The position numbers and the translations under genes are program-made. The notes below the pieces were generated by a model. It did no database searches, was not told the origin of the DNA, and was given only the letters and a program-made list of their open reading frames with translations. From Umbilicaria muhlenbergii (taxonomy: Eukaryota > Ascomycota > Lecanoromycetes > Umbilicariales > Umbilicariaceae), in contig KK106985.1 in NCBI GenBank assembly GCA_000611775.1, positions 2,580,527-2,644,526 on the forward strand: 64,000 nucleotides of DNA. Direction: 5' to 3'. Position 1 is the stretch's first letter. The number at the start of each line of letters is the position of its first letter. Positions 14,791 through 63,261 of this stretch are shown here, piece by piece.

Positions 14791-14799
14791 CTAGACACT

Positions 14800-18040: not shown

Positions 18041-18048
18041 GAGATAGC

Positions 18049-22880: not shown

Positions 22881-22952
22881 TTTAAGGTTAATCATGTATA
22901 GATGTATCTTGCAATGTCTGCATTATACACAATATTCTCTCATGACTTGAAA

Positions 22953-23332: not shown

Positions 23333-23382
23333 GCACTAATGTTAAGTGAATGATACTAGCTCATATTCTCATCACTAAATCA

Positions 23383-28913: not shown

Positions 28914-29033
28914 AATTTATACACAGACCCACGAGATATTGGGCATCCCGTCCGCTCTGCCATACATAAGCTTGAGATCGGCAGATCAGTAGTTGGGTGG
29001 GTGACCACCAGCGAATCCCTGCTGTTGTATGTT
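28914..29033 (+). rRNA. 5S ribosomal RNA-like gene (dispersed), diverged 5' part
   Basis: The 3' two thirds match fungal 5S rRNA closely: CCCGTCCGCTCTGCC, the internal control region with AGTAGTTGGGTGGGTGACC and ACCAGCGAATCCCT, and the end TGTTGTATGTT. The 5' third (helix I partner ACATAC and the ACGACCAT block) is poorly conserved, and the sequence reads ATACACAGACCCACGAG there. Helix I would therefore pair badly, which suggests a pseudogene or a variant 5S type. Dispersed single 5S genes and pseudogenes are normal in filamentous ascomycetes. The start is set from the usual length of about 120 nt. Confidence 0.8.
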
Positions 29034-29054
29034 TTTTGTTTTTGTCTTTTTTTT
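29031..29054 (+). terminator. RNA polymerase III T-run terminator
   Basis: Directly after the 5S-like gene come three runs of T (GTTTTTTG, TTTTTG, CTTTTTTTT), the usual Pol III stop. A strong terminator suggests that this locus was recently transcribed. Confidence 0.7.
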
Positions 29055-32872: not shown

Positions 32873-33114
32873 GTCTGATGGGCAGCATGGCTTAGATGCA
32901 GGTTGACATGGTGGAGCGAAGATAGTATGTTAAATGTCTAGTTTTCAAGAAGATGTACTTGACCTAGGTTCGTGTCTAGCTTTGCGTATTATGTGCTCAG
33001 CATCAATCATATGAAAATAGCGTAATGAGCCTGCCCAATGATATACAATAACACAATTGTTGCAAGACTTCTGGCCAGAGACTGATCGATCGAGGTTCAA
33101 TATCACTTACAAGC
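32873..33114. other. 3' flank of the amidase gene
   Basis: Normal composition; holds the amidase 3' untranslated region. No other gene is seen. Confidence 0.4.
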
Positions 33115-33867
33115 CTGTTGTATAGAACGATTATTTAGAGGCCAAATAAAATTGTTGAATGGAGCGTCTACTACTGTACTCAATTAGGGTTAGTGCATTA
33201 GGGCTGAGAACCTCACGTACGCAGTTAGCGTATGCACAAGGCGCTAGCCTTAGCGAGCTACTATAACATGAGTAGTCTGAGCATACATCGCATGATGTCC
33301 GCTAAAACTATGAGAGTGTGTGCTTAAATGCAAGGACGTACATCAATACATCATCTATTCATTAAAAATGTATTATTGCACTAGCTAAATATCAGTTCAA
33401 AATTGAATAAAATGAACGTAATAAAGAAAGCAGGAACTTGAGGCTTTCAAGCTGTTAATATACATATTTAGAAGCTTTTCACTAAGCTTAAACATACATA
33501 CACCTATGACGTGACTGCTTTTCCCGCTAGAACCTCTGCCTTAAACCCTTGCCTCAAACCCCTGCTCAGCGGTGAATCAGTGAATTTCAACAAAGCTGAG
33601 ACATGACCCTAATCAATCAATTCAATGAAATATGTTGAAATTCACTGATTCGCCGCTGAGTAAACGTCATTGAAGCAGAGGTTTAAGGCAGGGGTTTTAG
33701 TGAGAAAAGCAGTCATGTCATGAGTGCATGTATGTTTAAGCTTAGCGAAAAGCTCCTAAACATGTATATTAATAACTCAAAAGCCTCAAGTTTCTGCTTT
33801 CTTCCTTATGTTCATTTTATTCAATTTGGACTGATATTTAGTTAGTGCAATAATACATTTTATTTGA
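33115..33867. repeat. Foldback element, left end, left arm and most of right arm
   Basis: The outer inverted repeat starts CTGTTGTATAGAACGAT (33,115-33,141) and is matched in reverse at 53,036-53,062. Inner arms of about 230 bp run from 33,363 (AAAATGTATTATTGCACTAG) to 33,591 and back from 33,632 to about 33,862 (AGTGCAATAATACATTTT), around a 40-bp loop. Without the copia insertion the right outer repeat directly continues the right arm (TTTTATTTGACCTCTAAATA), so this was one element of roughly 775 bp. The 33,142-33,362 part has no partner, is CpG-normal, and may be an insert in the left arm. No transposase is present, so it is non-autonomous. Confidence 0.75.
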
Positions 33868-33872: not shown

Positions 33873-34078
33873 TGTTAGATATGCATCTAGGGCTCAAGGG
33901 CTCTAAAGCTCAAGAGCTCAAGTATAAAGTTAAAACAGCTTAATAAGCTGTCACTAGTGATGACTGATGAGGTCACATAACATGCAGAGTTTGCATCATT
34001 TACTCATGATTGAGCTGCACAACATCTATTATATGCTTAGATACCTTTTATCTATCTATCTATTTAGCATATTTATTA
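33873..34078 (+). repeat. Copia left (5') LTR
   Basis: It runs from TGTTAGATATGCATC to GCATATTTATTA. Compared with the right LTR it differs by 20 transitions, in every case with A or T here, and one transversion. It contains the tetramer run ATCTATCTATCTATT near its end. Confidence 0.92.
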
Positions 34079-34079
34079 A

Positions 34080-34090
34080 GTTATGAGCCT
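34080..34090 (+). promoter_or_regulatory. Putative primer-binding site (initiator tRNA-Met anticodon arm)
   Basis: Two bases after the left LTR stands GTTATGAGCC, complementary to the anticodon arm (GGCTCATAAC) of eukaryotic initiator tRNA-Met and not to its 3' end. Priming by a cleaved tRNA-iMet half is known for Drosophila copia. The match is short (10 nt) and sits in mutated sequence, so it is suggestive only. Confidence 0.5.
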
Positions 34091-34179
34091 GAGGAGCATT
34101 ACTGCTAAGTAATAACATAATTCTGAAAGAATCACCTCTGTCATACAGAAATTGCATCTGACTGCTCACCCCTCATACC

Positions 34180-35734
34180 CCTAAATCATCATGGCCAACA
34201 ACAATCACCAAGACTCAGCGTGATGAGAGGAGAAGTTGAAAAGAGTAGAAAACTGATCAAGATGATTTAACATGACAATGCTGAATCTTAAGAAGAAGAA
34301 GTATTGAGATATAATCACTGATGTTCATACAATCAGAACCACGGCGGCAGCAATTATTAATTTCAACTGAGACATCACTGAAGCAGTTGAGATCATCAAA
34401 AAAGAAATAAATGATGACTTGTTCAAGAACATAAAAGACACAGATAACTCATCTGAGATTTAAGACATTTTGAAGACTGTTTGCACACAAGTTGAGCAGA
34501 GTGTGATGTATGCTGAATTATGCTCTTTGTTGTTATACCCCTTCACAACAAAGGCTCAAGGTCATGAGAAATCAATTAACATGTGAGTCACAGATGTAAT
34601 GAGCATGATAAAGAAGATTAAGACTGCTGTCATTACTGAATGAGATGTGTGAGAAGATATCACCTTGATTACTTTACTTAAGAGCTTATCAGAGGAGTAT
34701 GACTCAAGGAAGAATCATATACTTAATTAAAAGAAAATAATTATGATTGATGCTCAACAAATTCTGACCTCTGAAGAAGTATGAATCAAAGTGAATTATG
34801 AAGTTGACCTTATACTGAGCTCAACCTTAATCATATGAAAAACAGGACAAAGAACAAGATGAGAAATGAAAGAAAAAAAATGTTACAACTGCAGAAGACT
34901 GAAACATTTAATAAGAAACTGCACAAGGCCTCATTTTGATAATATTCATACAAATGATTCTACAAAATGACGTGGCACTGTTAGCTATGATATCAGTTGA
35001 AAATCAAAGCATCAGATACAAAGGATGAGGGAGTATAATAATGAGAACAATAATGCAGAGCTGTTCACATCTGATGAAGAACAAATGAATATGATTGCAA
35101 GCATCAAGAGCAATTCATATGATTGATACATTAATTTCAGAGCTTCAGAGCATATCACAAACCAGTGACACTTATTTCTTAATATTAAATCATATGATAA
35201 GAAATTTAAGATCATGAGTGAAGACATAATATCAGCTGTTGAGAAAGAAGTTGTTGAGATTTGTATGAAGACTGAAACTATCAGGATCAAAGATGTAACC
35301 TTTATTTCACAGATGATGTTGAATTTAATATCATTAAAACAGCTTCAGCAAAGCAGCATCATTTATCATGATGAGGACATCAAAATGACTCTTAAGAAAA
35401 AAGAGAACACAATAATCAATGCACAATGAATCAGTAATTTATACATTTTAAATATTATCAACAACATGATGATGACTGTTCAAGGCTGACTCAGTTTCTT
35501 ATGCACATCAATCAAGAAACTACAGCTATGACATCAGCAGTTAACTCATTCAAGAATCATATGAGTTAAACATGTAAGTCAGATCATCACTGAGATGAAC
35601 ATCACAGCACAAGATAACAGTGAAATCTTGTGAAGTGATGATGATTTGAATAATGACAATTCAAATGAACATATAACTTCAGTCCCTTCATATGACTCAC
35701 AACAAGCAGTGTGTAAGCCTTGTGTCATCAGCAA
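34180..35734 (+). pseudogene. Copia gag, zinc knuckle and protease/pre-integrase region
   Basis: The plus-strand frame runs through a helical gag part to an intact zinc knuckle at 34,881 (C-Y-N-C-R-R-L-K-H-L-I-R-N-C). The protease-type motif follows as FRASEHITN (family: DSGASEHIT) near 35,130, then VTFISQMMLNLISLKQL and the pre-integrase part. Trp and Arg positions read TGA. The frame is cut at 35,739 by gypsy-1 and resumes at 42,261. Confidence 0.8.
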
Positions 35735-35778
35735 ACAGATGTAACAGGTGATGTTGTAGTGATTGAAGTAATATTATC

Positions 35779-35829
35779 ATTCAATGAACTATAAGTACTG
35801 TTCAATGAACTGAACAAGATTCAATGAAC
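35779..35829. repeat. Phased palindrome array E, inside gypsy-1 LTR
   Basis: Units at 35,779 (ATTCAATGAAC), 35,800 (GTTCAATGAAC) and 35,819 (ATTCAATGAAC). The same array in the other LTR (F) starts at 41,887. Its presence in a retrotransposon LTR shows that the motif is not limited to the DNA-transposon block. Confidence 0.8.
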
Positions 35830-36149
35830 TATCATGATCATATAACAACCTTAAGGTTAGGACCAAGTGAGGGAATTAATAATCATAAATTTAAGAGATT
35901 GCATTTAATACATGAGTTGAGCATGAACTTTTAACTATGAATCTACCTGTGATTATATAGACTCTAGGAAACTCATGTGATTGAGATGATCATAATGATT
36001 GAACTCTCAATCACTCTGAACAGCTCAATCACCCTGATTGAGGTGATCAAGGTGTTCAAGCTCTCACTCATCTTAATCACTTTGATCAGTATCAGCTGTT
36101 CACTGCAAGTGCATACTTTCAAGTACTGTTTTAACTAAGTCATAACATT

Positions 36150-39100
36150 AACTCCCCTCACAAGGTTTTCATCCTCAGAAATCAAAGCCCCTCATGTCTT
36201 ACTTCAGTGACAGAAAGATTGCTCAATCCTTAATTCACTGCTTTCACTTGACTGATCATATCATTAATTTCAGAAATCTTGTCATGTGACCTTGTCATCA
36301 CTGTGTCTCTGATGATTGTGAGTGTTTCATGTCTTTAAAATCTGACTGTTGCAGTTCTTATGTTCAGTCAGGTGTTGCTTGTGACCTTGTAATATCTTCA
36401 GCTGAGTTGAATCATGTCAGGGAGAAACTCCTTCATTTATAAAAGAAAAAGACAGATGTTTCTGCTAAAAAGTGAAAGTTGAAGATGAAGAAAGAGAGAC
36501 TTTGCAAATAAATTATTCTCTTTAAGAAGTGACAGATGAATCTGATTCATACTGAGCTTCAAAATATCAAAGAATTGAAGCAGGAGGAACTGACTCAGAG
36601 TTAAATTACTGATCCTCTTCTTAACTTCTTCAAATCCTTCATCATTCTTGATGACTGACTGGCAGCAGGTTCCTCTGACAGAACTGATGTAACTTCATTG
36701 AATAATGAGTAAGATTCTCTTCTGATTCTCATGTGTTCCCTGCCGTGTCATAACCTTTTCATTTAATTAAATAATGAGGCTCATCATTTATCTCCTGTTG
36801 ATTTAGAATCTTCTTTACTTTGAACTCAACATCTTGACTCTCAGGGTTGATCTCAGGTGAATTATCTTATAACAGTGTTTTCAAGTCTGCTGATTCAAGT
36901 AAAGATATGTGAAATACTGAGTGTATTCACATGACTGATGAAAGTTTAAATTCATAGTTGACACTTCCTTTCTTCTTTAAAATGTGAAATGATCTCAGCT
37001 TCTTGTGATTCAACTTGTTGCTTAATCACTTCATCTTGATGTTGTGATGCAGAAAGTATACTTTATCTCTTTCTTCAAGAGTAGATCCTTTATCTCTTTT
37101 TTTATTATGATATACTGCTGATCTTTCTGAGATAAATTTTATGTTTCATTAAAGTTCCTGATGAAGGTTCTTTAGGTGATTCACTTGTATCTTTGTTTTT
37201 TGTGTTATCATTATCAGCCCCCTCACCTCATTCATTGATGAGTTGAATTCATAATTAACATAAAATGATGACACTCCTGTTGACTCTGTTGCTGCTGTAT
37301 TGTAAGTTAACTGAGCTACTGGTAAGAGTTCTACTCAGTTGATTTGTTGATAATTAACATAGCAGCGCAAGTACTGTTTCAATGTTTAATTTAATCATTC
37401 AGTCTGTTCATCTGTTTGAGGATGATATGCAGTGAACAGCTTGTGATGAACTCTTAACTGATTCACTAATGACTTTCAGAACTTGAAGGTGAAGAGTTTA
37501 TCTCTGTCTGAGATTATTTCTTCTGATAGCTCATGGTTGATGATTATAATTCTTAAAAATGTGTACATTAGTTCTTCTGCTGATGATGATTTCTTATATG
37601 ACAAGAAGTATCTGTACTTCATGAGTCAATCTGTTATAATCAGTATTGCATCATACAATACTTTCATCAGGGGTTCTTTTGATTTTGAGAGTTTTATCAC
37701 AAAATCTAGTGTGATGCTTGACCATGATTGTGACAGTGTTGATGATGACTTTAATAATTCATATGATTTATGATGTTCTGCTTTATTCTTTCAGCAGGTA
37801 TCACATTTCTGAACAACTTCTTCAACTTTTTTCCTCAACCGTGAGAAGTAGTACATCTGTGTGAGTCATTTCATTGTCTTTTCAACTCCTTGATGTTCAT
37901 TTATTTTGCTGAAATGGCATTCTTTTATCAGCGTCTCTCATAGGCTGACTGATACATAGATTAAGTCTTGAAAAAGTAAGAGGCCTTCTTGCTTTTCAAA
38001 GCTTTCATGATTGTTGATATTTTAAAGAACTTGTTGTGCTAACTTGTTGTTCTTCAACACTTTTTGAACTCAACTATCAAAAATGTTATTCTCAACTCTT
38101 ATCATAAAGTTGACTTCTTTATTGTATGTTATGCTCTCTTGCTCATTCTTTCAAAGGATGACCTGATTCATGATTAACTTTTCCTGCAGATAATCAGCTC
38201 ATCTGTTAAGAGCATCTGCTTTGATATTCTCTAATCCTTTTCAGTAATGAATCTTGAAATTATACTGTGATAATTCTTCTGATTAATGAACTTGTCTTCA
38301 GTTTAGGACCTTCATTGTCATGAAGTATAACAGATTCTTATGATTTGAATACATCTGAACCTCATGCTTTGATCCTTTGAGATATACACGTCATTGCTTA
38401 AATGTGTTAACAATAATTAATAACTTCTTGTCATGTATCTTGTAACTCTGTTCAGCGTCTAAAAGCTTTCATGAGTAGTAGATTATTGATCACAGACATC
38501 TCTTATCATCTGATTAATTAATGCACACTTTTATTGCTCTGTCTGATGTGTTCATCTTGAGCGTAATAGATTTCTCAGGGTTGAAACTCACAAGAATTAA
38601 TTATGATGTGAAGTGCTTCTTCAGCTCTTTGAAGGATTTTTGTGCTTCAGTAGATTAAATAAATTTTCAGTCTTTCTTCATCAACTCTGTTAAGGGTGCT
38701 GTGATTTTAAAATATTTCTTGATGAACTTTTTATAGAAGTTTGCAAAGCTTAGAAAGGATTGTACTTCCTTAACATTCATCAGAACTGATCATTTAATCA
38801 TGAAATTAATTTTTTCTGAGTTCATCTGTAGATCTTCTGATGTGATGATAAATCTGAGGAATTGAACTTCCTTGACATGAAAAAGACTTTTCTCAGGCTT
38901 AACTCATAAGTCAGCATCCTTTAGCGCTTGTAAGACTTTCTGAACATGTTTGACGTGTTGCTCTTTCATTTTCAAGTACATCAGTATGTCATTGAGGTAG
39001 ATGATCATGAACTAATTTAAATACTGTCATAAAATGTTGTTGATAAAAGCCTAAAAAGTTGCAGGGGCGTTGGTTAATCTGAATGACATTATCAAGTACT

Positions 39101-41840
39101 CATACAGCTCTGAGCATGTTTGAAATGCTGTTTTTCATTCATCACCTTCTTTTATTCATATCTGGTTGAATGCCTCTGAGATGTCAAACTTCATGAATTA
39201 TTACATTCTCTGAAATCTGTCCTGCAATTTTGATATGAGCAGCAGTGAGTAACTGTTCTTTATCATTATGTTGTTTAATGCTTTATAGTCAACACACAAC
39301 CTCAATGATCTGTCAGATTTCAGGATAAACAATATTGAATATTCTGTCAAAGATTGAGATTCTTGAATGAATTCTTTTTGTAAGTTCTTCTTTAAATATT
39401 CTCACAATGCATTTAACTTCTGAGGTGACAATGAGTATATGAGTTACTTCATTGATTTGCACTCTTTTATGATATTGATTTCATGATCTTATTTTTAATG
39501 TTTCAGTAAGGCGTCCTGTTCCTTTACTGCTGTAAATAACTCTTCAAAGTCTTTGTATTCTTTAGGGATAGATAACTTGATAATAAAGTCTCAGTTGTTG
39601 TTGACTCACCTAGTTCACAGTATTTTTGCATCAGGATTTTTTAATTCCTCACATGTTTCTTCTGCTGTCATAGTGAAGACTTTCACTCCTTCAGGTGAGT
39701 GTAGGACTGAATATAACTTTATAAAGATATTGCCTTTGATGAAGTATATCTCATTCTCAGCTCAATCAATCATGAGATTGACTGCTCAGAGTTAAAATAT
39801 ACTTAAGATTATGTCACTTCCTGACTGCTCTGTAATGTTGAAACTGATTTTCTCTCAGTGTCAACTTATCTATATTGATGTCAGAATGATTTATTCATTC
39901 ACATGATTATTGTTGTGTTTCATAAGGGTTTCATCAAACCCTTGAAGTGAATAAGGATTCCGCTTTTTCTGAATTTCTATCTTATTCAATTTTGTGAATC
40001 ATGAATTCAAGAAATTCCCTATACAGTCACTGTTGATTAACAGTCTGGCTGAGTGGCCTTTTACTTTAACTCAGACACAGAAGTTGCTCATGTCTTCTGT
40101 GACAGTGATTTCTTTAGCAATCACCCCTTTCAGAGACTTTAGTTCAGGCGTCTTCAGAGGCCTCTGACTCAGAGGGCCCTCTAGTTTTTTGAACTAGATG
40201 AGAGGAATCTCAGATTCTCTCTCACATACTTGAAGTCTTTTGAGTTGACTTTCTTGTTCAGGTATCATATCAGGTTTAACTTCAAGTATTTACTTCAAAG
40301 TTCTTAAACTTTCATGCATAGTTTTCTTGAGATGTGTGCTCTGTTGAGGGTAATATATTCTCCTTTCATGATGAACTTTAAGCTTTTCAATGATGTTTCT
40401 TTGAGTATATTCTGATAATTCATATTCTTGATTTCATCTTTCTGAGTGAATGCATCTTTAATTATTCACAGGATTCACTCCTGCAACTGATTTACATGAT
40501 TTTCATAATTCTCAGGAGATTCTTTCATCACTTTAAATACTTCTTCATAAGTTTTCAACCACTGTTCTTCATGAGTGAATGCTTAAACATCATCATTCTT
40601 CTTGATGAGTTCTTTTGAATCATCAGAGTTCATTACTTTCATGAAGTCTTCCTCCTCACTAAATGAGAGCATTGTTTCATGACTGTTAACATAATTGCCT
40701 TCTTGGCTGAACTGATCTCATTAAACTTGTTATTTCTTCAAGTCTGTGGCTTGATTTAGATGAGAGGTGATGACATATTCTCTTATTCTTTTAAGTTAAC
40801 ATGAGAATCACTCAGAGCTGTCTTTATCACTCTGATGTGTGCAACAGTCATCATCATAATATGCTGTTTAAGACATAATGTTATAATTGACTTTGCCCTT
40901 TACTTCTTGCGTGGCAGCATATGTCTTTTTTGATTGAACAGTCTTTTCAGGGTTTCAACAGTCTCAGGTGAAGTGTCTCAGTTTTTTATAATTATAATAA
41001 TTATTTTCATGAGGCTTCTCTTTCTTTCCTGAGTTCTTCCCTGGTACTTTCCCTCGCTGAAATTGATTCACTCAAGTAACAGCATCAATTTTCATGAGTT
41101 GAGGTTCATAGTAGAGTTGATTGTTATACTGACACTCATGATTCTTCTCAGCCCTTCATGATACAAGAATCTTGTGACTCTTCTTTAAACTTCATTCATA
41201 AGCTCAGTTGTCAATAATGATTGATCATTCAATCATTTCTGAGAGCATGGCAAGGTATTCAACTTTAAAGATTTCATCTTTCATCACATCCTTCAGTCCC
41301 TTATAATATTGCATCATCAAAGCAATATCATCTCAATTCATATGTGAGGTGAGTCTTTGAAAGTTTATCATGTATATAGCAGCTGCTTCATTCTGCTGAA
41401 TATTACAGATTTCTCACTTCATCATTCTCTTTTCATTAATTGTTTTAAACATTATTCTTATTTGCTTCTTGAATTCCTTTAATGCATGAAAGATCTCATT
41501 AATCAAGTTATCCTGATCTTCACTCTTGTTGTCAAGATAATCTCAGAGGATAAGTTCAAATCAGTTCAAAGCATTTAACCTCAGAAATGAGGAGGTGAAC
41601 AACACTTTCTCTGATTTTAACACAAATAAAGACTTGTTGAATCACAGGTACATGTCAAGCTGAGTGAATAACAAGTTTAATAATCTTCTCTCATCAAGAA
41701 ACTTATCTGATAACAGAATCTTAACTCAGATTACTTTGTCAGAGAAATGTTCAGTGACTGATTCTTTTCTGTCAGAGGATTTGAACATCTTGAGACTGAT
41801 GAGTCAGTTTGTTGCGTGACTGATACCCTGTAAGTTGATG
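36150..41840 (-). pseudogene. Gypsy-1 gag-pol relic with C-terminal chromodomain
   Basis: Reading the minus strand from 41,840 down: gag ends with a zinc knuckle near 41,000 whose Cys codons are partly Tyr (YYNYKKLRHFT for CYNCGKLRHFT). The RT palm reads IIYLNDILMY near 38,990-39,015. Integrase shows the zinc part as VEEVVQKCDTC near 37,820 and the DDE core as IITDR, SDRDKLF and HPQTDEQTE (37,370-37,680). A C-terminal chromodomain follows (VKKILNQQ, HYLIK.KGYDTAGNT.ESEENL) at about 36,690-36,840, with Trp codons turned to TGA. Chromodomain integrases direct insertion to heterochromatin in this lineage. Every domain is present but dead. Confidence 0.88.
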
Positions 41841-41847
41841 CTCAAAG

Positions 41848-42255
41848 TGTAACAGGTGATGTTGTAGTGACTGAAGTGATATTATTATTCAACAAACTAT
41901 AAGTACTGTTCAATGAACTGAACAAGGTTCAATGAATTATCATGATCATATAATGACCTTAGGGTTAGAACCAAGTGAGGGAACTAATAATCATAGACTT
42001 AAGAGATTGCATTTGATACATGAGTTGAGCATGAGCTTCTAACTATGGATCTACCTGTGGTTATATAAACTTTAGGAGACTCATGTGATTGAGATGATCA
42101 TAATGATTGAATTCTTGATCACTCTGAACAGCTCAATCACCCTGATTGAGGTGATTGAGGTGTTTGAGCTCTCACTCATCTTAATCACTTCAATCAGTAT
42201 CAGCTGTTCATTGTAAGTGCATACTTTCAAGTACTGTCCTGGCTAAGCCATAACA
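41848..42255 (-). repeat. Gypsy-1 5' LTR (right copy), with palindrome array F
   Basis: 408 bp, the partner of 35,740-36,147, and generally richer in G/C. It holds array F at 41,887 (ATTCAACAAAC, decayed), 41,908 (GTTCAATGAAC) and 41,927 (GTTCAATGAAT). The middle unit is conserved in both LTRs. Confidence 0.9.
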
Positions 42256-42260
42256 ACAGA

Positions 42261-42525
42261 CTTGAATCATTCAGCATGAATTAATGTGATTCATCACATG
42301 TAAGCTTGAATGAGTTCACTCTGACTTTTGAGGGCTGCATGATTCATCATCATTTGAAGACAGTTCATATGCGGGGATACTGATTAATAATTTTATAAAA
42401 AAGTCATGAGTTTTGTTCCTGTGAACAAAAGATTAATACTTTAATAAGATGAAGATTTAATTACAACAGGCAGAGAATAAAGCTGATGTTAAAATGACAT
42501 ATTTACATATTGATGAGGGAGGAGA
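42261..42525 (+). pseudogene. Copia pol fragment between the two gypsy insertions
   Basis: A 265-bp piece of the copia element left between the duplications ACAGA and ATTTG. It continues the pre-integrase/integrase part that resumes at 48,737. It is too short and mutated to show a motif on its own, and is assigned by position. Confidence 0.7.
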
Positions 42526-42879
42526 ATTTGTGTTACAGTTAATTATATCACTTCATAAACAGATCTAGAATTGTTGCAAGAGGTGAGTTATTTGAACTTA
42601 AAAAAGTACAAAGAAGGAAGCAGTCTTGTGAGTGCAGTCATGACATAAATGTCAAGGTGTCAAGACACACTAGTTATAATTTAATTTAATGTCAGGTAGT
42701 TCAATATTCATCAGTGTTAATTGATCATGTCATAACATCACTCCTCTTTAGACAAGAGGATTGTTCTCAGTTCTCATCTTAAGTCTTTTATCTTGACTGC
42801 TTCTTGAATTCTCTATTGATTGTCATGTTGTCTTTATTCATCAAGTTCAGCTCTTCACCTGACTTGTAAGCATTTAATT

Positions 42880-45800
42880 AAACTTGTAATCTCCTCAGTG
42901 ACCTCACCTCATTCAGATAAGCATCATGATAATTTTTTACCTTTTGAGGTGACCTTATAAAGTCATCAGCATCATATCATTCAGAGTCTGAATCATATCC
43001 CTCTCAAGTCACTTGATATTACAAGATATTATTGTGGATCTGACTTGCTAGGATTTTTTTCACTGTGTACTCAGGCTGATCATTAACTTCAGTCAACAGC
43101 TCTGAGTCTTGAATTTAATTCAGCATTGAATCATTCACCGCCTTCCTTAAATGATCAGCATGAAAGATGTTGTTCATCTTCATGTGTTCAAGTAACTTCA
43201 GAACATAGAAGTGACTTTTCATGCTGAGAATTCAGTAAAGGCCTGTCACTTGATGATTCAACTTTAAGTTAAGTCTTTCAGTGGTTCAACCCTTTCAAGT
43301 AACATAAACTCAATCATTAATGAAGAAGTTCAGTTTCCTTCAGTGTTCATTTGCTTGATCTGTTATTCTATTTTAAGTCTGTTTGAGGTTGCTTTTTACT
43401 CATTTTACAGTGTCATGTGTTCTGATGACAAAGGTTTAAGCCTCCTCACATGTGAGCTGCTCTCTCACTGTGTTTAAGGATTGCATTCACTCTTTTCAAT
43501 GAAAGTGTAAATGAGGGGTCTGTCTCAGCTTCAACTCATAAGATGACATGCTTGTAGACTCATGAGTGAGAATCACTTGAGTGAAATTCATTACTGATAA
43601 AAGGTCTGATCAGTTGTCTTGAAAGTGATTCACAAAGAGATGAAGCTGTTGATTAATGTACTGATTCAGTACCTCAGTGCTTTCATCAGTCTGTGAGTGA
43701 TATGCTGTTGAAAGCTTTTGCTTTATCCTCACAAGCTTGCAGAATTCATTCATGAATGCTGAGATGAATTGAGGATTTTAATTTGATGTTGTTGTTTCAA
43801 ATGTTCTGTAGATCCTTCAGATGTATTCATAATATAATTATGCAACTTGAGCTGCTGTAACTGTCTTTTAACATGACAGTGAGAAGGCCCTTTTTTTAAA
43901 GTAATTGATAATGATGAATATGTTGTCAAAGCCTTTCTTGTCCTGTGAGAAGGATTTAAAGTTGAATGAGACATGCTGTCAGCACTTATCTTCAATTAAT
44001 AACAGATGAAGTAAGCCTGAGGTCTTGTCTCAAAGTACATGCATTCAGTGATATGTTCAGCAGTTTGAAATAAAGATAAAACAGTCATTTGACAGATCTG
44101 ATCAGTAGTATTGAACTGATAATAACTTTGTCATCTTAATCTTGCCTGAGTGCACTGTCACTGATGTTGAGTGAGCCTCATTAATCAAATGAGTCTGTAA
44201 AGTGTTCATGTTCAGCATCATGAGCTTTTCAAATCATGTAAGAAGATTGTTTTAAAACTTTTAACCTCATTTTTTCTTCCTTGTCATCTGATGATACTGA
44301 TTCAGTGATTCATGAGAGTGATTGACTTGCAGAATTTGATTCATCAGCTGATAAAGATTTTTCACTTGTTCAGCCTCATTTGATGAATTATTCTCAACAT
44401 TCATTGAACCTTCACCTATTGTGGCTATTATGCAATTAGGATTCAGAAACAGTTATGTTCATGCAGTGATGTTCTTTTCTTTCTGAGTGATCAACTCATC
44501 ATGTTTTCTTGTCAGAGCATCAACAATGATGTTGACTGTTCTTGAGTGATAAGTAATCTTGAAGTTGTAATCTGTCACAATGTCAGCTCATTTAGCCTGC
44601 CGTGAGTTGAGCAAGCACTTGATGATGAAGTATTTCAGCATTCAGCCTCAGTGACATGCTGTATAAGAAGCTTGAGGTCAGGTTGTTTTCATCTTTTAAG
44701 ATGATATCATGATTCACTTTTTTTTTATGTAGAGACAGCTGATCTGATGTCATCTTGCTGAAAACCTTCACAAACTTTTAATACTGATGAGGTAATTTTT
44801 CCTTTACTTTTTAATTCAGCTTTATTTCATTTTATAATAGCAGACAGGGGTTTCTTCAGTTCTTTATTAAGTGATTAACCTCATAAATGTTAATGACACT
44901 CATAACAACTTCTTTTCTTTTAACATTGTGTAGGAAGTTTTCTGCTTTCAGAAATGTAATATTCACTTCTTGATAAAAAGAAGATTTATGATCCTTTGAC
45001 TTCTTCATGTTTAATAAACTTCAGCCTTCATTCATTGAATTACTCATGTGGTTCATTAAATCTTCTTTTTTGTTCAACTGTTTTTTCATCTCATTGATGT
45101 TGATCTGCTGCTGAGCTCTTCATGTCTTTGACTGTGCTCACAATTGTAGAATTGACTTTTTAAGCAGTTCAATGAACCTTTCCTTTCACTCATTTAATCT
45201 TGTTGAATGTTCAGTATCCTCAGGATCAGCTTTATTAAATGTTATTATGATTTTATTTCTTTCTGCTCTTCTTAAAATCTGAGTCAGTGTTGCTGCCTCA
45301 TGCAGATTATCACATCATTCAGTATCTGTCTGATGCTTTGATATGAGTTTTAATAATTGAATCTTTCACCTTGACATTATCAAGTTTCTGCTTGCCTGAT
45401 ACTGAGCTTCCTCAGGTCAAATCAGCTTTTGATTGAAATAATCAATCAAGATTTAAGTCTTTTCAAATCATTTCCTTTTAATCAAAACATCATGCCTGCT
45501 GATATTATAAAATAAGAAGTGAGTAGAGATTCATCTTCTGTTAATCATTAAGTTTACTGTAAATGCTCTGAAGATCACTTCAGCATTTTGATTATTATAT
45601 TCTGTTAAAGAAATTAACCTCTGTGCTGTTCTAATGTATAGCTGCAGATGCTTTTTCACAAATTTAAAGTGCTTCTTATGAATGAAAGTCTTCTCAGCAA
45701 CATTGATGTTTAACAGAGCTGTTATCCTCATGATTAAGCTGTTGACTACAAGTTAATAATCTCAGGTCAATAATGATTTTCTTAAAATGTTTAACATTTT

Positions 45801-47160
45801 CATCTTGCTTATCTTTGCTCCCTCTGTTGACTTTAAAGTGAAGACTTCATTTAAAGTAACTCATTTTCTGAATCTGAATGATCAGAGTCTACAACCTTTG
45901 CCTCAGCTTTCTTTGATTTATCAGGATAATCTCTCATCAGGTGTTCTTTCTTATTGCAGATGTAACAAGTTACATTAATTAACATTAACTTAATTGCTTC
46001 TTATGCAACAGTGATGATTGTGATGATTGTCTTCTTTTTAAATTTAAAAGTTGACTGCTTCCTCTGCAGCTTCTGCTGATTCTTTCATTTCTTGATTCTT
46101 TCATCAACTTTAACAAGACCTCTCATGAACTGTTGAGCCTTTTTACAGTAAATGTCAAATGACATGTCTTTATCAACAACATAAATTTTCATTTGAATTT
46201 GAAGTGAGTTGTATGACTTGTCATGAACTTTTTTCTTTCACTGATCTGTTGACATCTTCACTGAATTTGCTAGCTGTAAGAATTCTGACTGAAACACATT
46301 AAAGTTCTCAAGATAAGACATCTTGAACTTCTTCAGCTGCTTTCATGTCTTCAAGTGATGATCTGAATCCTTAAAGATGTTCTCAAGACATTGAATAATC
46401 TCTTCAACATAAATTTCTCTTCCTGACTGAGTCTTTAATCATGAATAGAGGTGTTCAGCAGCCTTGTCATCATTTCACATCTTGATGTAAATCACTTTAA
46501 CATGTTCAGCTTCATCTAGATCTGATTGATTGAATTAATCATTATTGATTCATAGCTTGCTCTTCATCTGATCATTTCATACCTGAAATGTGAGCTTAAG
46601 ATCATCATTCAGAATTAATGAATTTGAAAACTTCACTGAACACTTTTTTATTATGTCACTTGCATTCAATTTAAGTGTGCCTTCTCTTGGCCTCTCTGCT
46701 TCAGGGTTGTTAAGTTGTCAGGTTAACTTCAACACATCTTGTTTTAATTCTTGTTTCTTAATTGTTAACTTCTTTATCTGAGAGTCTTTCTGATTATTTT
46801 GTTCTTTTAGATTTTGAATCTGTGTCTTGTAGAAATCTCTCTGATTTAGCATCTTCAACACTAAACAGCAGATGTTCTCTGAATCATGTATTACTCATCA
46901 CTGTAAATTTTCAGAAGTCACATCATCTCAAGAGTTCATCTTCATGATGTTTACTGTTTTTGATTTCTCATGATCATCTGACTGTCCTTCAGTCAAGGAT
47001 AATTTTTTAAATTAAGAAGAAGTCCCTCCCTCTTGATGTGATTTAATCATGATTTCTTTAATGCTTCAGACACTTACTTTTAATGCTGAGATTATTCAGT
47101 TCAGAACCTTGCTCTTTCAACTGCCTCTACTGCAGTTGTTTGTGCCTATAAATAAGTCTT
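42880..47160 (-). pseudogene. Gypsy-2 gag-pol relic with chromodomain
   Basis: Minus-strand order: gag from about 47,160, with a zinc knuckle near 45,930-45,965 (CYICNKKEHLMRDYP, last Cys now Tyr). RNase H and the adjoining linker near 44,490-44,640 read NSRQAK.ADIVTDYNFKITY and then VNIIVDALTRKHDEL. The integrase region is down to about 43,200, and the chromodomain at about 42,910-43,060 reads VKKILASQ, Y.VT.EGYDSDSE.YDADDF. Trp codons of the chromodomain read TGA. RT motifs between RNase H and gag are poorly visible, so part of RT may be deleted. Confidence 0.8.
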
Positions 47161-47409
47161 TTTATTTGTTGACTTCTCATAATTACCTGTCATTGTGACA
47201 GAGTGCTTCTTGATCATTCATTGCTTACTTCTCATAAAACTTGAGAATTGATTATTGATAATCAATTGATGAATTTAAGATGTTCTAGAAACCTCCTGAT
47301 TACTCAGTAGATTAAATCATTCACAACTTGACAACCTGCTCAAAAATAAGATTTTAGTTACTAGTACTTTATGCGCTCAGAGCACTCTCTGAGCAGTAAA
47401 TGAGCTCAT

Positions 47410-48290
47410 ACAAATCTTACACTTTAAATAACTATTATACCTTCATGAATAATAAGAAACTTTTTATTGAAAAGTTTTAAATCTCTTTATTCTGTACACT
47501 TTACAAACTAAAGATTTCTTCATAAGTTTTAATTTGCAATAGTTATGAATTAAAAAACTTTTAACTAATTATAAATATATTAGCATATTGAATAACTATT
47601 GCGCTTTTATACTTATGATAGAACTTTCAGTTTATAAGTTGTAGAGAAGAAACTATTAAACAGTTTTATAACTTAAAGTTTTTTTATAACTGTTGTTGTT
47701 AAAAAGTTACATTGATTTCAAACTTTCAGTGACGAAAATCACAACATTAATAAACAGACTTTTAATGACTTTTTGAATAACTCAACAACAACAACACATA
47801 AAAAAAAACTTTGTATAAGAAAACTCTTAAACAGCTTATTCTCTACAACTTATAAACTAAAAGTTATATCATAAGTATAAAAGCGCAATAGTTATTCAAA
47901 GTATATGACTTTTTTTGAAAGATTTTTCGCTATTAAAAACTTGAATTAAATATAACTTAACAACAACAGCAGTTATGAAGAAACTATTAATTTAACATTA
48001 ATAGAGAATACTGTTCTTTATAACTTATGCATTGAAAGTTTCTTCATATCTGTTGAGATGCAAAAGTTATTAAAGTGTGTAGATTTTTAAGTGACGAAAA
48101 TCTTGAAGTTCTTTAAATATTCAGAACTCAACACTTATACAGTGCTTTCAGACTCAACAAATCATGATTTTTATTTGCAGAAAAGTGAATTTTAGCAAAA
48201 GTTTACTTATTATAAATTTTACTGTTATTATAACACTGTGTGTGTACTTGTTTAAACAATTGTTTTAATAACTGTTTTCTTATCACAAAA
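47410..48290. repeat. AT-rich inverted-repeat region inside gypsy-2
   Basis: ATAACTATTGCGCTTTTATA at 47,613 pairs with TATAAAAGCGCAATAGTTAT at 47,876, and the arms extend about 80 bp around TTATAAGTTGTAGAGAA. GTGACGAAAATC occurs at 47,730 and 48,091, and GATTTTTCGC at 47,922. This is probably a separate foldback element that inserted in the gypsy-2 5' leader. Confidence 0.6.
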
Positions 48291-48736
48291 TTTTGATGTT
48301 CCGCTCAAGATTTAAGGTTGAGCTCAAAGTGCTCAAAGGGTGCTAAGAGCGGCTGTTAGCTGAAACATGAGATCAGAAGCTCAGAGCGCTCAAAGTGCTA
48401 AAAACTAACTCAAAGCTAGATGTTTGATGATGTTGAGGAAGAATTTTTTCATCAACACATGTGTTTGTCTCAGCTGGTATTCTGTCACCTTCAGAGGTTG
48501 AAAAGAGTGTAGGTACTTTTCTAATGTTACAGTTAATTATTTCACTTCATAAGCAGGCTTAGGACTGTTGCAAGAGGTGAGTTATTTAAATCTAGAAAAA
48601 TACAAAGAAGGAAGCAGTCTTGTGAGTGCAGTCATGACATAAATGTCAGAGTGTTAAGATACACTAGTCTCAATCTAGTTTAACATCAGGTAGTTCAATA
48701 TCTGTCAGTGTCAATTGATCATGTCATAACAATTTG

Positions 48737-51571
48737 TAAGTCAAGCAATGATCAATTATATTGTTGATCATGAGGTTACTCTTGAGTTTTCTGCTCTGTA
48801 CACTCTGAAGCATAATTCAGTAGCTGAATGATACTGATGAATCATTCATATGATGAAGAACTTCATGTTACTGAATGTTAAACTGCTTAATAAGTTCTGA
48901 GCTGAAGTCATGAATACTGTGAACTACCTTAGGAATCAGCTATCAACTCATGTTAAAATTATAACTTCAGAGGAAGCCTGAACTGAACAATGATCAAGCC
49001 TTAAGCATGTTCAGATATTCAGTTCACTTTTATACATACACATATTAACTGAACAATGAGTCAAGTCAGATCTAAACTGAACTTGAAAAAGAATTTTTGT
49101 CAGGTACATCAACACTAATAAGTAAATTAAAGTGTGAAGCATGAAGACTAATTTTATACACCTCATCTTCACATATACTATTGATGAGTTCAGCAGGGGG
49201 TTCAACCTTATAGAAACACTTTTACTCATGCTTACATGAATAAGATTACAGGACAGGCAATCACCTGATGCATCATGTAAACACAATCACTCACACAAAT
49301 TAATTATGAATATCAACATCAATGAAGCTCAACAAAATCATATGAATTATGATCAAGATTCAAATTCATTTAAAGAGGCTGAGGAGGACATATCAGCACT
49401 GCTTTTATAAAAGAAAGAACATCTCATGAATTCTTTATCAACTGATATTTTTAAAAGAAGGTTGATTGATACACAGTCAGTTGATTCCTCTACCTCTGAT
49501 AATTCTGCTGCGTTCAGAACTATAGTGATAAGTGATGAACACTCATTAAAGGTGAGTGCTGAGGCAGCTGAGCTGCCTGCTGCATTAAATCAATTCACTC
49601 TCATGAAGCTAAGTATCAGGGCAAGCTGTAACAAGTGAGCTACATATGAAGCAAGTGCAGATGAAGTTGCATTTTTAAATAAAAAAGATATAGCTGAGAC
49701 ACCTGAGACAGAATGAATGTTAATGAAGTTGAAAAAAAAGGCTGAAGTCAATGCTGTGAGGCTTATATGAACTGTCAAGAGTCAGGGCAAGAGAAGATCA
49801 ACTGCTGAGAATCAAGATAAGAGAAGATCAACTGTCAAGAGTCAGAGCAGAAGAGATCAGAGCATTATTAATAATAAAAATGTTCATGAGGCTGAGAGTG
49901 TGAGTCATGATAAAGATAACTGATCAGCATAAATTAAGAAATCACATTTATATAAAGTGACTGTGAATGACCTGACATTCAAAAGGTAGTGATGAGAGAT
50001 CATTGAAGACAAATTAACAAATCTGAGATCATATACAGTTTAAGTCATTGAATCATTGCTGCAGAGCAGGAAGCCTGTTGAGTGCAAGTAAATTTTTAAA
50101 ATCAAGTATGATGAGAAGAGGAGAGTATCAAGGTTTAAAGTCAAGCTTGTAACTCAAGGATTTTCACAAATTTATGAAGTGAATTATCAAGAAATGTTTG
50201 CCCTGACTGTTTGTAAAGAGTCATTAAGAATGTTTTTAGCCTTGATAACTTTATATGACTTGAAACTTCATCAGATGAACATCAAAGCGGCTTACTTATT
50301 AAGAGAATTGAACCATGAGGGGGAGAATATTTATATGCATGTTTCAAAGAGTGTGATCATCAAAGACTCTGATAAGATGACTTGTTGAATTGTGAAAGAA
50401 CTATACAGGCTGAAGTGATCAATGAGGCTTTAACATAAGAAGTTAACTGATCTTATGAAGATTGAAGATTTTCAGGTCATGAATGCAGACCTGAGCATAC
50501 TGATTAAAAAGATTCATGAAACTGTCATCATTATTAATGTTTATGTAAATGACCTTCTTATCACAAGTCAGACAATGCAGGAAGTCAACTGCATGAAGAT
50601 TATTCTTAATGAAGCATTCAAGATGTCAGACCTTGAAGAAGCAAGAGTTATTATTAATCTTAAAATTATTAAAAATCAGCATAAGGGTACTTTGACTCTT
50701 AATCAGACTTCATATATTGAAGAGGTTCTTTAAAAAGAAGAGATGCAAGATTATTCACCTGTTGAAGTATCAATGAAACTGAGATCATTCATTACATTAA
50801 ATGAATCAAAAGACTCAGATGAAGTCAGTCAAAAAGATTTATAATAAATTATTAAAAAGTTGATGTATATTGCCTGTGACACACGCCTTGATATTACTTT
50901 CACAGTAGGATGTCTTAATCAAAACATCATTAATCCTTAAGCTGAACACATTAAGGCGGTCAAGTGAATTATGTGATACTTGAAAGACACTACAAGCTTT
51001 GATTTAATGTTCAGAGTTAAAGAAAATGTTCATATGAATTAATTTATAATGATATCATACAGTTATTCAGACAGTAATTATGCTGAAGACATCATAAACT
51101 GAAAGTCAACTATGAGATATGTTTTTATGCTAAATGATGATGTTGTTGCATGAATGTCAAAGAAGCAATGCACTGTGTCAACATTAATCACTGAGGCAGA
51201 GTATATCATGTTAAGGTATGATGTGAAGCAGAGTGTCTGAATGTGAAGATTTATTAACAAGTTAAACCTCAATCAAGCAACCCTTAATATCACACTGCTG
51301 AGAGACAATGAATTGAGCATAAAGCTTGTACAAAACTCAGAGCAGCACAGTCATATGAAACACATTAATGTGCAACATCACTACATTTGAAACATGGTTG
51401 ATGACAGGGAGTTAATTGTTGATTGAGTACTTACAAGGGAAATATTGACTGATGAATTAATAAAGATGTTGACAAAAGACACATTCAAAGGTCACTGTCA
51501 ACAGTTAAAGCTCATACAACTTGCTGAAACTTTGAGGGAGAATGTTAAGCAAGGAAAAACCCCTTCACAGT
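48737..51571 (+). pseudogene. Copia integrase, reverse transcriptase and RNase H relic
   Basis: Plus strand: integrase core end with VTLEFSALYTLKHNSVAE and VNYLRNQLSTH (48,770-48,950). The RT follows with KYDEKRRV..FKVKLV, NYQEMFALTVCKESLRMFLA, LHQMNIKAAYLL, and the palm INVYVNDLLITSQ (YVDDLL with one Asp lost) near 50,530-50,575. RNase H follows with DITFTVGCLNQN, SKKQCTVSTLITEAEYIML and a final HINVQHHYI..MV. From about 50,930 to 51,430 I count ten in-frame stops, eight TGA and two TAA, at positions normally Trp or Arg. Gln codons survive. Confidence 0.88.
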
Positions 51572-52820
51572 AATATGTTTAATATCATCATAATAAGGCT
51601 GCTCATGCTTACAAATGATCACTGATAATGAACACTGAACACTCAAATACTGAATGTTAAAACACTGAACACAGAAAGCAACTATCTACCTATTTACAGA
51701 GGTTCACTCAGAAAATGCAGCCTCATCACTTTTTTCAAGCTGATGAACAAGCTCATCAATTCTATCATCTGAAGGCTGATAAGTAAAAGAGTGAAACCTG
51801 TCACCTGTTGAGAGCTGATGAGTGAAGGAGTGACTTCTTCACTCAGAGCTCCTTCATGAGCAGCTCCTCAACTCATGATTTCTTCACAATATCAAGTGCT
51901 CACCTGGCATCAGCATGTCATTCATGTTGACACAGATGAAGGCCTTAATGCCTTAATGATCATTAAGTAAAGCAGGAGGAGGAGAGAAAGAAGAAGAAAT
52001 GAACTTAAATAAAGAAGCAAGATCTGCTGAATATAATGAATTTAATAATGTTAATAACACTCAATTGTGACGCCTGAATTTATATGAAACCTATGAAAGG
52101 AACACTCAATTGCAATGTGTTTAAAAAGACAATCCTCACATGTGCCTTGACTGACCTCACGTTGAGTGATGTAGAATTAAAAGATCAGGTCAGAAGCTTC
52201 TTCAGCTTTCTTATGAGCACAACAAGTGCAGAGAGATCATGCTTAATGTTCATAACTCTGTCAACATGTCAGTCAAAAGTGAAAACATCAAAATGAAAAA
52301 CATCAAAATGAAAAACATCAAAATGAGAGTGAAGTAAATTTAAACAAACAGTGCCTGCGCCTCCTGTGAATGAGTGATGTTGAGATCACTCACGCTTAAA
52401 CAGCCTGCTCAAGTGAAATGAATGAGTCTTGAATCATGCTGATCAGTGAGTGGTCAGTGATCAGAATTTAAGTCAAGAGAAGAGAAACATCAACAGTAAT
52501 CATCTGTTGATCTTGTTCAACTAAACCACAGATCAGTCAAAAGTGACAATAATGCAACTACAATTACAACAAGAACACTTACTGATCATGATAATTAAAA
52601 TAAAGGCCCCTGAAGAGACAACACTGACATTGTCAATCATGATTGTTGTATGATTAAGGAGGAAAAGTTGATGATGTATGAATATCAAGATAAGGTCCTT
52701 ACCCCTCATTATTCATTAACATGATTCACAGAAAACATGATTACTCTTATTCATTAACATGATTCACAGGATTACTCTATGTCTATGACTATGAATTAAA
52801 GAGCAGCTTGAGGCTAGCTG
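51572..52820 (+). other. Copia 3' region, no recognised gene
   Basis: Sequence between the RNase H end and the right LTR. A 70-codon frame (52,084-52,293) has no motif. A 15-bp unit (AAAACATCAAAATGA) occurs three times at about 52,284-52,326. It may be untranslated sequence or a small captured piece. Confidence 0.4.
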
Positions 52821-52829
52821 CAGGGGGAG
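52821..52829 (+). promoter_or_regulatory. Copia polypurine tract
   Basis: CAGGGGGAG stands directly before the right LTR (TGTTAG), where second-strand DNA synthesis of an LTR retrotransposon is primed. Confidence 0.7.
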
Positions 52830-53035
52830 TGTTAGATATGCATCTAGGGCTCAAGGGCTCTAGGGCTCAAGGGCTCAAGTGTAGGGCTAAGACAGCTTAG
52901 TAAGCTGTCACTAGTGATGGCTGGCGAGGCCACATAGCATGCAGAGTTTGCATCACTTACTCACGAATGAGCTGCACAACATCTACCATATGCTTAGATA
53001 CCTTTTATCTATCTATCTATCTAGCATATCTATTA
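52830..53035 (+). repeat. Copia right (3') LTR
   Basis: 206 bp, TGTTAGATATGCATC to GCATATCTATTA. Much less mutated than its partner; it keeps GGGCT repeats and GGCTGGCGAGGCC. It borders normal-composition DNA after the CCTCT target duplication. Confidence 0.92.
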
Positions 53036-53062
53036 CCTCTAAATATTCGTTCTATACAACAG
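53036..53062. repeat. Right terminal inverted repeat of the foldback element
   Basis: CCTCTAAATATTCGTTCTAT and the following ACAACAG form the reverse complement of 33,115-33,141 with one mismatch. The first five bases are the copia target duplication. It marks the right end of the whole 20-kb nest. Confidence 0.85.
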
Positions 53063-53082
53063 AATAGAGCTTCGGGCATTAG

Positions 53083-54029
53083 AAAAAAAGGAGCGGTGTC
53101 GACTTATCTATGGACCTTACCAAGTTCATTCGGGCAAGGCTAAGTCAGGAAAGAGTCGACGTCGAGACCAGCGCAGCGGAGAAGATTGTCCATCAAATCG
53201 GCTATTTACCGTTGGGGATATGACAGACAGCAAACCTAATCGTCAATGATTCGAGTAGCTTACTGACTTCCTAGAAGCATACATCAACAGGGAGCTGATT
53301 AGAAATCCTCTGTCGACCTATCAGTATTCATTGGGTAATTTCTGGAACATGAACTTTGAATGACCTACTACGGACCGTCAAAGCCTAGTCAACATCATGG
53401 CTTCCTTCGACCCGGACCGTATCCACATAGATCTGTTGGAAACAGGCGCATCAAAGAGTTCATATCCTGGATTGTATTTCATCTCTACGCCTGAAATTTG
53501 AAAAAAATGTAAGGTAGCTCTGCTTTGGAGCTCATTAGTCTCACAGGACGAAGAACTCCGGGAGCTTGGGATGCATAGGCTCGTACAAGCATTCTGTCAC
53601 TTACGCATGAATGAGATGGATCGTTGTCGCTATTTCAGCATGGCGGTTTCACAAAACTGCGGATGCGTTGCACAAACTCGGATGGCACTTGCACGGAAAC
53701 TACAACGACAAGAACTCAGTGTAAGTTCCACGTCTATGATATTCTCGCAGGCCTCTTTGCAGCGCAGCTGACGAAACCTACGCCTCAGTGTGAAGCTCAT
53801 ACAAGCTCTGGTCATGTACAACAGCAACACAAACTTCTTCTAGAACGAGATCGCACGCACCACGTATAAACTCGGGTGCGTATATCAAGATCTAGGTGAC
53901 AAGGAGAAAGGTCGGGAGGCCATCGAGAAAGCGGAGAGACTGCGGAAGGAGATAGTGCCGCCTGAAAAGTGGGCACCCGCACTGTACGAGGAGAGCTTCG
54001 ACGAGATTGTCCAGTTTTGGAGCCATTGA
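53083..54029 (+). pseudogene. Broken NLR gene (NB-ARC end plus TPR-type end)
   Basis: Plus-strand pieces in different frames match fungal NB-ARC/TPR NLR proteins. AAEKIVHQIGYLPLGI (53,171) lies in the ARC part, followed by a stop and frameshift. Then come DFLEAYINRELI, YQYSLGNFWNMNFE and SLVNIMASFDPDRIHIDLLE (53,267-53,440). Next is LLWSSLVSQDEEL..LGMHRLVQAF (53,520-53,600), and finally a C-terminal LGDKEKGREAIEKAERLRKE, IVPPEKWAPALYEESFDEI ending at TGA 54,029. The nucleotide-binding P-loop half and most TPR units are missing. Composition is normal with many CpGs, so decay came by stops and indels, not by the RIP-like process next door. Intact relatives act in non-self recognition and programmed cell death. 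Confidence 0.75.
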
Positions 54030-54723
54030 CAATGTTTCTGCAGCCCTATCACTAGTTGTACTGCCCCATTCATCTATGCTATGGTCTCTACGTGGTGTTA
54101 TTACACTCGGTCCTGGATGAACATTGCTGATTAGTTTGCGGAGGATTCGTAGTAGTTGGTGTGCAAATAAAAGAACCTGATGACCTACCTGTTCCAAGGA
54201 CCATGAACTGCAACGCGTTGATACATTCCGATCTCAACCTCGCTCGGTTTGTCATTCAGAGCCAACGGAAGTTACACATTCTCGGGCATCATGGTCTCCA
54301 CCGTAAGGTCTGCTAAAGTCTAGGAGCTAAATCAAAGGCCATCCTGTACTACGGAATTAGGATGGTAGTAGTTCTAATTGATCCTATATGGTCGGTCCAA
54401 AAGCCAGAACCGGACTGGAATAAATGCATTTAGTATATAGTCGGTCCGGACCACTGCCGACGATGTACGGAATCCTTTGATGTAGGTATCTCTGCTGTTC
54501 TCTGTTACTTGCTCCTTTTTCTTCCTACACACTCCATGTAATGCCTACCTACAAAGCAATTGATATGATGAAAGGTAGCTCCACCTCGAATCAGTTCTCC
54601 AGCATCGAATTTTATACCCACTTTTAAGACACCCCCGCTATGCTAAACAAACAACCCTTACCATCCCTCCACCAATGCAGACTTCGTAAAGTCATAAGCA
54701 ACATCATAAACCATCATCGCCAG
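54030..54723. other. Intergenic region, 3' side of GCN1
   Basis: About 690 bp of normal composition between the NLR relic and the GCN1 stop codon. It should hold the GCN1 3' untranslated region. I see no gene, and the small frames have no motif. Confidence 0.4.
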
Positions 54724-63030: not shown

Positions 63031-63261
63031 CGCCTCCTCCATAACCTCCTATCTGCTTTGGGATTATGTAGGAGCATGCGGTTGTGGAATTATTTTGCTT
63101 AGCGGGTGATGCTACTGCTACCGCACAAAAAGTATAAAGCGGCATTGCATATCTTTCAACGGCACCCCCTCTCCCTTCCGAATGTCATCGCACACAATAT
63201 TTGCGCACTACTAAATGAACCCGGAAGCTCTAGACTAAAACGTCATCTATGCAGGAACAGA
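63031..63261. promoter_or_regulatory. Divergent promoter between GCN1 and the DEAH helicase
   Basis: Only 231 bp separate the two start codons, so both genes must draw on the same region. CACCCCCTCTCCC (63,165) is a pyrimidine-rich stretch of the kind common before fungal starts, and ATAAAG lies at 63,134. No specific factor site is claimed. Confidence 0.6.

Follow-up and report, generated by a model that had tools for sequence, protein, structure and literature searches.

Which process has mutated the repeats in and around a copia element of the ascomycete Umbilicaria muhlenbergii, and how does it relate to classical repeat-induced point mutation (RIP)? The window, that is, the whole stretch of 64,000 nucleotides analyzed here (GenBank assembly GCA_000611775.1, contig KK106985.1, positions 2,580,527 to 2,644,526), contains this element with its two long terminal repeats (LTRs) in AT-rich DNA, for which an initial annotation had proposed a RIP-like mutation that spares CpA. 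Our analysis shows that C is mutated to T where A stands two bases downstream and the base in between is G, C or T (C-B-A), with CGA and CCA hit more often than CTA and all three far more often than CAA. The evidence for hypermutation and for its C-B-A preference is strong, and we have very little doubt about either; the low mutation of CpA is a by-product of the rule at position +2 and not the rule itself.

Both copia LTRs belong to one element, as the target-site duplication CCTCT flanks the outer ends of the pair. Alignment of their 206-base core yielded 11 A/G and 9 T/C differences and one transversion, with A/T in the left and G/C in the right LTR at every one of the 20 transitions (20:0, P = 2e-6 under equal decay); two further mismatches are seen solely if the alignment is extended 3 bases beyond the LTR. 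The initial annotation, made by eye, had given the same counts and polarity as well as the same contexts of the mutated C (CpT 9, CpC 7, CpG 2, CpA 2). Both strands were hit (9 C>T, 11 G>A), and the mutations fall on 13 of 25 C-B-A sites, including all four CCA and both CGA, as compared to 7 of the 66 remaining C sites (P = 7e-5). The copia pol frame (48736–51495) is interrupted by 27 TGA, 11 TAA and a single TAG and has neither TGG nor CGA codons, while 35 CAA/CAG codons are present. In the segment 50938–51495, the stretch that we picked as the RNase H part, the previously noted eight TGA, two TAA and absent TAG were recovered, together with four CAA and two CAG codons that survive. The excess of TGA follows from the +2 rule, since both CGA>TGA and TGG>TGA, the latter being read as CCA on the opposite strand, are C-B-A events; TAG is rare because it reads CTA on the opposite strand and is mutated in turn, yielding TAA, and CAG survives because it is no C-B-A target.

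Contexts were counted in alignments of four repeat families (the copia LTR, the D2 and D5 LTRs and the D3 repeat), using copies with a query coverage of at least 70 % and a single representative of each identical set, which reduced copia from 30 to 28, D2 from 33 to 31 and D5 from 37 to 30 and kept all 9 of D3. Besides the copia copies first cut out, 20 of 32 further matches were fetched, as were 20 of 25 D3 matches, 30 D2 loci from 45 matches and 30 D5 loci from 41 matches; in a first look at the genome, 40 of 353 D2 and 40 of 138 D5 candidates were scored. As these loci were chosen as relatives of repeats in the window, "genome-wide" here refers to these families and to the domain searches described below, not to the whole assembly. 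Pairwise counts comprise 1,316 alignments spanning 250 bases or more at 70–98.5 % identity among the fetched copies, the pairs not being independent. Except for the directional copia count, the neighboring base had to agree in both copies, a rule introduced because CA/TG double differences (259 + 254 cases), which we attribute to the decay of ancestral CpG on opposite strands, had inflated the first CpA family count.

Across the four families, the mutated share was lowest at CpA (336/4209 =.08), followed by CpT (725/4337 =.17), CpC (425/1235 =.34), and CpG (198/331 =.60), so that a preference for CpA, the outcome that would have contradicted the initial annotation, did not occur. Among aligned C sites, the proportion differing by C/T was.93 in CGA,.84 in CCA,.55 in CTA, and.32 in CAA, as compared to.26,.05, and.40 in CCC, CCG, and CCT,.16,.20, and.19 in CTC, CTG, and CTT,.10,.03, and.13 in CAC, CAG, and CAT, and.61,.47, and.71 in CGC, CGG, and CGT. 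C/T differences outnumbered transversions at C by 68029 to 3039 in pairs of repeat copies. In a position model spanning −4 to +6, the effects at +1 (G +1.55, C +.47, T −.63, A −1.39) and +2 (A +1.43, T −.10, G −.65, C −.69) were largest and those at +3 and −1 weaker; the −1 base contributed little (C +.31, T +.07, A −.11, G −.27), and a strong 5′ context was rejected accordingly. A whole-locus bootstrap gave.595 (.566–.623) for C-B-A,.636 (.511–.755) for CGB,.383 for CCB,.319 for CAA,.187 for CTB, and.094 (.082–.107) for CAB, the lowest class. In the closest pairs (94–98.5 % identity), CCA differed at 21/23, CGA at 15/23, CTA at 71/268, CAA at 46/589, and CAB at 87/1183 sites. The proposal that CpA is spared therefore stands insofar as CpA is the least mutated dinucleotide, but it is neither absolute nor the rule: CAA is mutated more than CAC, CAG, and CAT, for which reason plain CpA avoidance was rejected, and in the older D2 LTR family CpA>TpA reached 172/1387 =.12 versus.01 in reverse. 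The genic background could likewise be rejected as source, since CCA, CGA, and CTA occur at 1.11, 1.13, and.95 of expectation in GC-rich parts of the window.

The direction of change is evident from the 28 copia LTR copies, which were classified by their C share at C/T-B-A as spared (at least.40; 19 copies), mutated (below.30; 7), or intermediate (2). Going from spared to mutated copies, T was found at 456/462 CCA, 163/224 CGA, and 1024/1983 CTA sites, at 245/640 CGB, 375/1122 CCB, and 86/514 CAA sites, and at 242/2062 CTB and 185/2505 CAB sites, as compared to 262/11754 for T>C in the reverse direction; these counts are comparisons between copies, thus not independent, and the context was read in the spared copy only.

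Along the window, the mutation is switched on or off by region. In 1-kb windows, the C share at C/T-B-A amounts to.45–.61 in genic and.02–.14 in AT-rich DNA, with two border kilobases at.18 and.22; the shift is far smaller at C/T-B-B (AT-rich.25–.49 versus genic.41–.48), and CpA (.34–.76 versus.51–.68) shows no comparable drop. The same share is bimodal in 454 half-kilobase windows from 75 loci (358 below.15, 5 at.15–.25, and 91 above), in which the CpA share is unimodal. The stop codons point to a distribution beyond the window as well: 150 copies of the reverse transcriptase domain RVT_1 contained 682 TGA, 15 TAG, and 106 TAA, and 43 DDE_1 matches of DNA transposons (52 candidates) contained 127, 4, and 49, respectively, i. 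e., 809 TGA, 19 TAG, and 155 TAA among 983 stops in 193 scored domain copies. This tally includes all 150 RVT_1 and 43 DDE_1 rows, with lists copied by hand, and since 150 of 877 RVT_1 candidates were scored, the most decayed copies are missing from it. The signature hence occurs across the genome and does not depend on reverse transcription. Four of eight DDE_1 loci that were cut out are depleted inside (.07–.14), two of which (L118 and L120) have clearly less mutated flanks, while the other two do not. Genic DNA is kept both in the window and at other loci, and the flanks of L118 and L120 are kept or less mutated. As a control, a DNMT5-like gene was compared with its broken copy (80 % alike) and showed no bias (C-B-A 17/62, C-B-B 39/154, CpA 18/98). 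Mutation is thus concentrated in repeats and AT-rich blocks and affects retroelements and DNA transposons alike, with G or C at +1 and A at +2 preferred and A at +1 disfavored.

Because the target A is at +2 instead of +1, standard tests for RIP miss this mutation. Common tools call RIP via CpA/TpA indices (PMC7882544, PMC2621366, the latter working by dinucleotide). In three AT-rich blocks, TpA/ApT was.51–.71 and (CpA+TpG)/(ApC+GpT) 1.54–1.73, opposite to RIP, and with the thresholds of PMC7882544 the substrate index flagged 0, the product index 1, and the composite index 1 of 91 AT-rich 1-kb windows, just as the initial annotation had predicted for the CpA index.

Its suggestion to look for RID/DIM-2-type methyltransferases also proved fruitful, as a profile search of the genome returned four DNA_methylase matches, comprising RID-, DIM-2-, and DNMT5-like genes, and one Pre-SET match, as expected of a DIM-5-like gene. 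In the DIM-2-like protein (L009), DNA_methylase scored above its cut-off and BAH just below (30.3 versus 30.8 bits). It matches PDB entries 9bap (E 3.8e-173) and 9baq (4e-151 over the catalytic half), which we take, given the matching residue letters, to be the entries of the published DIM-2 structure. In that DIM-2–DNA structure, R1145 touches the bases that pair with those at +1 and +2, D1173 touches the base at +1, and the exchange R1175A abolishes the activity of Neurospora DIM-2 (PMC11315935). R1145, D1173, T1164, T1166, and T1167 are conserved in L009, while T1144 and R1175 are replaced by F, as read by eye with an inferred numbering offset of two. The second protein (L010), whose DNA_methylase domain is split over two exons around a short intron, is presumably of the RID/Masc1 type, judged by layout and motifs. 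The DNMT5-like gene (L011, G000:C5:2349218) matches PDB 7r76 (E 8e-64), an entry named Rad8 that we assume to be Cryptococcus DNMT5, and the fourth match (L012, G000:C1:6527376) is the broken copy of L011 mentioned above, located on another contig and devoid of the C-B-A signature.

Taken together, these findings likely reflect RIP-type mutation by an enzyme of the RID/DIM-2 class with its target moved from C-A to C-B-A, a reading to which we assign a probability of roughly two in three. In repeated DNA, C-B-A sites of either strand would undergo C>T conversion, in a process that may be repeat-induced and premeiotic, as in Neurospora, and in which a RID- or DIM-2-class cytosine methyltransferase would set the target through recognition of the base pairs at +1 and +2. 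Our first guess is DIM-2, because the two residues that contact these base pairs in the published structure, R1145 and D1173, are unchanged. We lean, by a narrow measure, to the broader view that RIP targeting is not fixed at CpA and that the executing methyltransferase of this lineage reads two positions downstream. As it lacks the CpA preference that defines classical RIP, the process is filed here as a RIP-like variant and not as a member of classical RIP.

Several observations weigh against this reading. CCG, mutated at 4/73 sites, falls below the expectation of the additive model, 19 of the 28 copia LTR copies are spared, and four of the eight DDE_1 loci show no depletion (.38–.59). Strand runs, a habit of RIP, were absent over pairs of at least 88 % identity and weak in the copia LTR pair (P.028). 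The replacement of R1175 by F may point to a DIM-2 that is inactive or acts in another way. Furthermore, even the spared copies differ from each other somewhat more at C-B-A (.145) and CpG (.295) than at other contexts (.042–.058), which speaks slightly for a slow component and could also be produced by slow decay.

Among the alternatives, a combination of two processes, namely CpG decay after methylation by DNMT5 and a RIP-like process at CCA and CTA, survives best. It would account for the strong mutation of CpG that lacks A at +2 (CGC, CGG, and CGT, see above), and a DNMT5-like gene is present; however, a single additive process fits all 16 contexts (r =.92), and CpG was lost in the same copia LTR copies as C-B-A (on average 3.5 CpG per spared and 0.1 per mutated copy), with a retention that tracks that of C-B-A across the 28 copies (r =.87). 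We thus regard two processes as unlikely, albeit worth keeping in view. Slow decay without any RIP event, in which repeats methylated by DIM-2 (with a C-B-A bias) and by DNMT5 (at CpG) lose C by deamination over generations, appears rather improbable to us: the DIM-2- and DNMT5-like genes, the position of CpG among the most mutated contexts, and the slight bias of the same kind among spared copies would suit it, but it is at odds with the 20:0 split inside one element, with a bimodal C share that leaves merely 5/454 windows at.15–.25, and with spared LTRs that adjoin saturated DNA. CpG methylation and deamination alone was rejected in view of CCA (.84; 456/462 in copia LTRs) and CTA (.55). A cytidine deaminase acting during reverse transcription is very improbable and hard to uphold, for although the typable mutated elements of the window are LTR elements, DDE_1 DNA transposons share stops and motif, and both strands of the copia LTR are mutated. 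Classical CpA RIP misread through base composition can be dismissed despite the AT-rich blocks and the RID- and DIM-2-like genes, given that CAB is the lowest class, CpA retains its C share, and TAG accounts for 19/983 stops.

A RIP-like variant with a C-B-A target has partial counterparts elsewhere. With classical RIP via the RID pathway of Neurospora crassa it shares C>T mutation on both strands of repeats, kept genic DNA, AT-rich relics, and RID- and DIM-2-like genes, but it differs in having A at +2 and not +1, TGA instead of TAG stops, and negative indices. The CpT/CpA RIP of Magnaporthe, Botrytis, and Sclerotinia (PMC4352252, which lists CpA, CpT, and CpG signatures) is similar in that it concerns ascomycetes with RID-like genes and a target that is not purely CpA; it is, however, described by dinucleotide, whereas here CpA is lowest and A at +2 decides. 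A trinucleotide target in repeats is also known from the TpCpG hypermutation of Microbotryum and other Pucciniomycotina (PMC5381629), the context of which consists of a 5′ T and a 3′ G, whereas here the 5′ base matters little, CCA and CTA are targeted, and RID- and DIM-2-like genes are present. CpG-biased mutation in Rhizoctonia, Heterobasidion, and Coccidioides (PMC4014442, PMC5870257) likewise entails CpG loss and favors TGA stops, but CpG is just part of the target here, as CCA and CTA are mutated too. DIM-2-dependent RIP beside repeats (PMC12543289) could suit saturated interiors between spared LTRs, yet DNA transposons devoid of LTRs are mutated here as well; the excerpts of that paper name no sequence context for it. 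The same 2025 survey of 1,239 fungi, based on k-mers of two to four, states that RIP-like defenses share a CpA preference (PMC12543289). We found no description of a C-N-A or C-B-A target (A at +2) in the excerpts of the open PMC literature, and no paper in that literature that relates TGA stops to CGA. The many ascomycetes reportedly compared by Clutterbuck in 2011 could include a related observation.

Heavy repeat-directed C>T mutation is thus scored negative by CpA indices in a genome with RID- and DIM-2-like genes. If true, register-shifted RIP escapes such indices and may have been scored absent in other fungi, which is a reason to re-examine genomes listed as RIP-free. The C share at C/T-B-A offers a simple new statistic, and the natural variant may help to locate the residues that set the RIP target. 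The stop typically left behind is TGA, contrary to the TAA/TAG rule used for nematode-trapping fungi (PMC3828140).

Table 1. Features of the window, with the C share at C/T-B-A where determined.
Feature	Position	Strand	Remarks
Second mutated block	1..28000		1-kb C share.02–.14, C-B-A nearly lost
Genic island	28800..33300		C-B-A kept, C share.45–.54 (kilobases 29001 to 33000)
Amidase-like frame in genic island	30954–31451		named by eye
AT-rich block	33873..53035		C-B-A nearly lost, 1-kb C share.02–.11 from 34001
Copia left LTR	33873..34078	+	partly mutated, C share.22
Nested LTR element (D2 family)	35740..42190		mutated; LTRs 35740–36082 and 41848–42190
Second nested LTR element (D5 family)	42531..48735		mutated; LTRs from 42531 and 48525
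Copia pol frame	48736..51495	+	integrase end, reverse transcriptase, RNase H; domains named by eye
Copia right LTR	52830..53035	+	spared, C share.51
Genic flank	53036..64000		C-B-A kept, C share.45–.61
Long minus-strand frames resembling GCN1	in genic flank 53036..64000		named by eye

At the tract edges (Table 1), the internal copia DNA is saturated (.04) right up to the untouched right LTR (.51), while the left LTR (.22) sits within a gradient of about 400 bases. Edge copia LTRs spared beside internal DNA that is saturated nearly to the junction were seen at 52700–53040 and in L002, L003, L005, and L007. Among eight loci examined (L001–L008), L001, L002, L003, L005, and L007 have a spared LTR that separates saturated DNA from kept or less mutated DNA, L003 and L005 resembling copies of one locus, and L004, L006, and L008 are spared solo LTRs with 5-base duplications of their own. 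Three of 60 D2 and D5 loci adjoin kept DNA, namely two D2 loci with C shares of.20 and.22, the least mutated D2 members, and one D5 locus that is not spared (.11). The ends of tracts hence follow those of the elements, and the termini are spared to a varying degree; conceivably, flanking repeats would escape a DIM-2-like process that acts between them.

The first 22–23 kb of the window have a G+C content of 38–43 % after the first kilobase (39 % overall) despite near-total loss of C-B-A; as G+C is kept in 1–23000 while C-B-A is lost, motif loss and low G+C are separable. Within this mutated block, two identical 75-base copies lie head-to-tail at 9148–9297, and a nested inverted-repeat cluster with arms of 64–108 bases marks the AT-rich/genic border at 27541–28266. 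Finally, the right LTR of the second nested element (48525–48735) is 100 % identical to G000:C3:7809-8019, near the end of contig C3, which, in a heavily mutated family, suggests a recent duplication or exchange.

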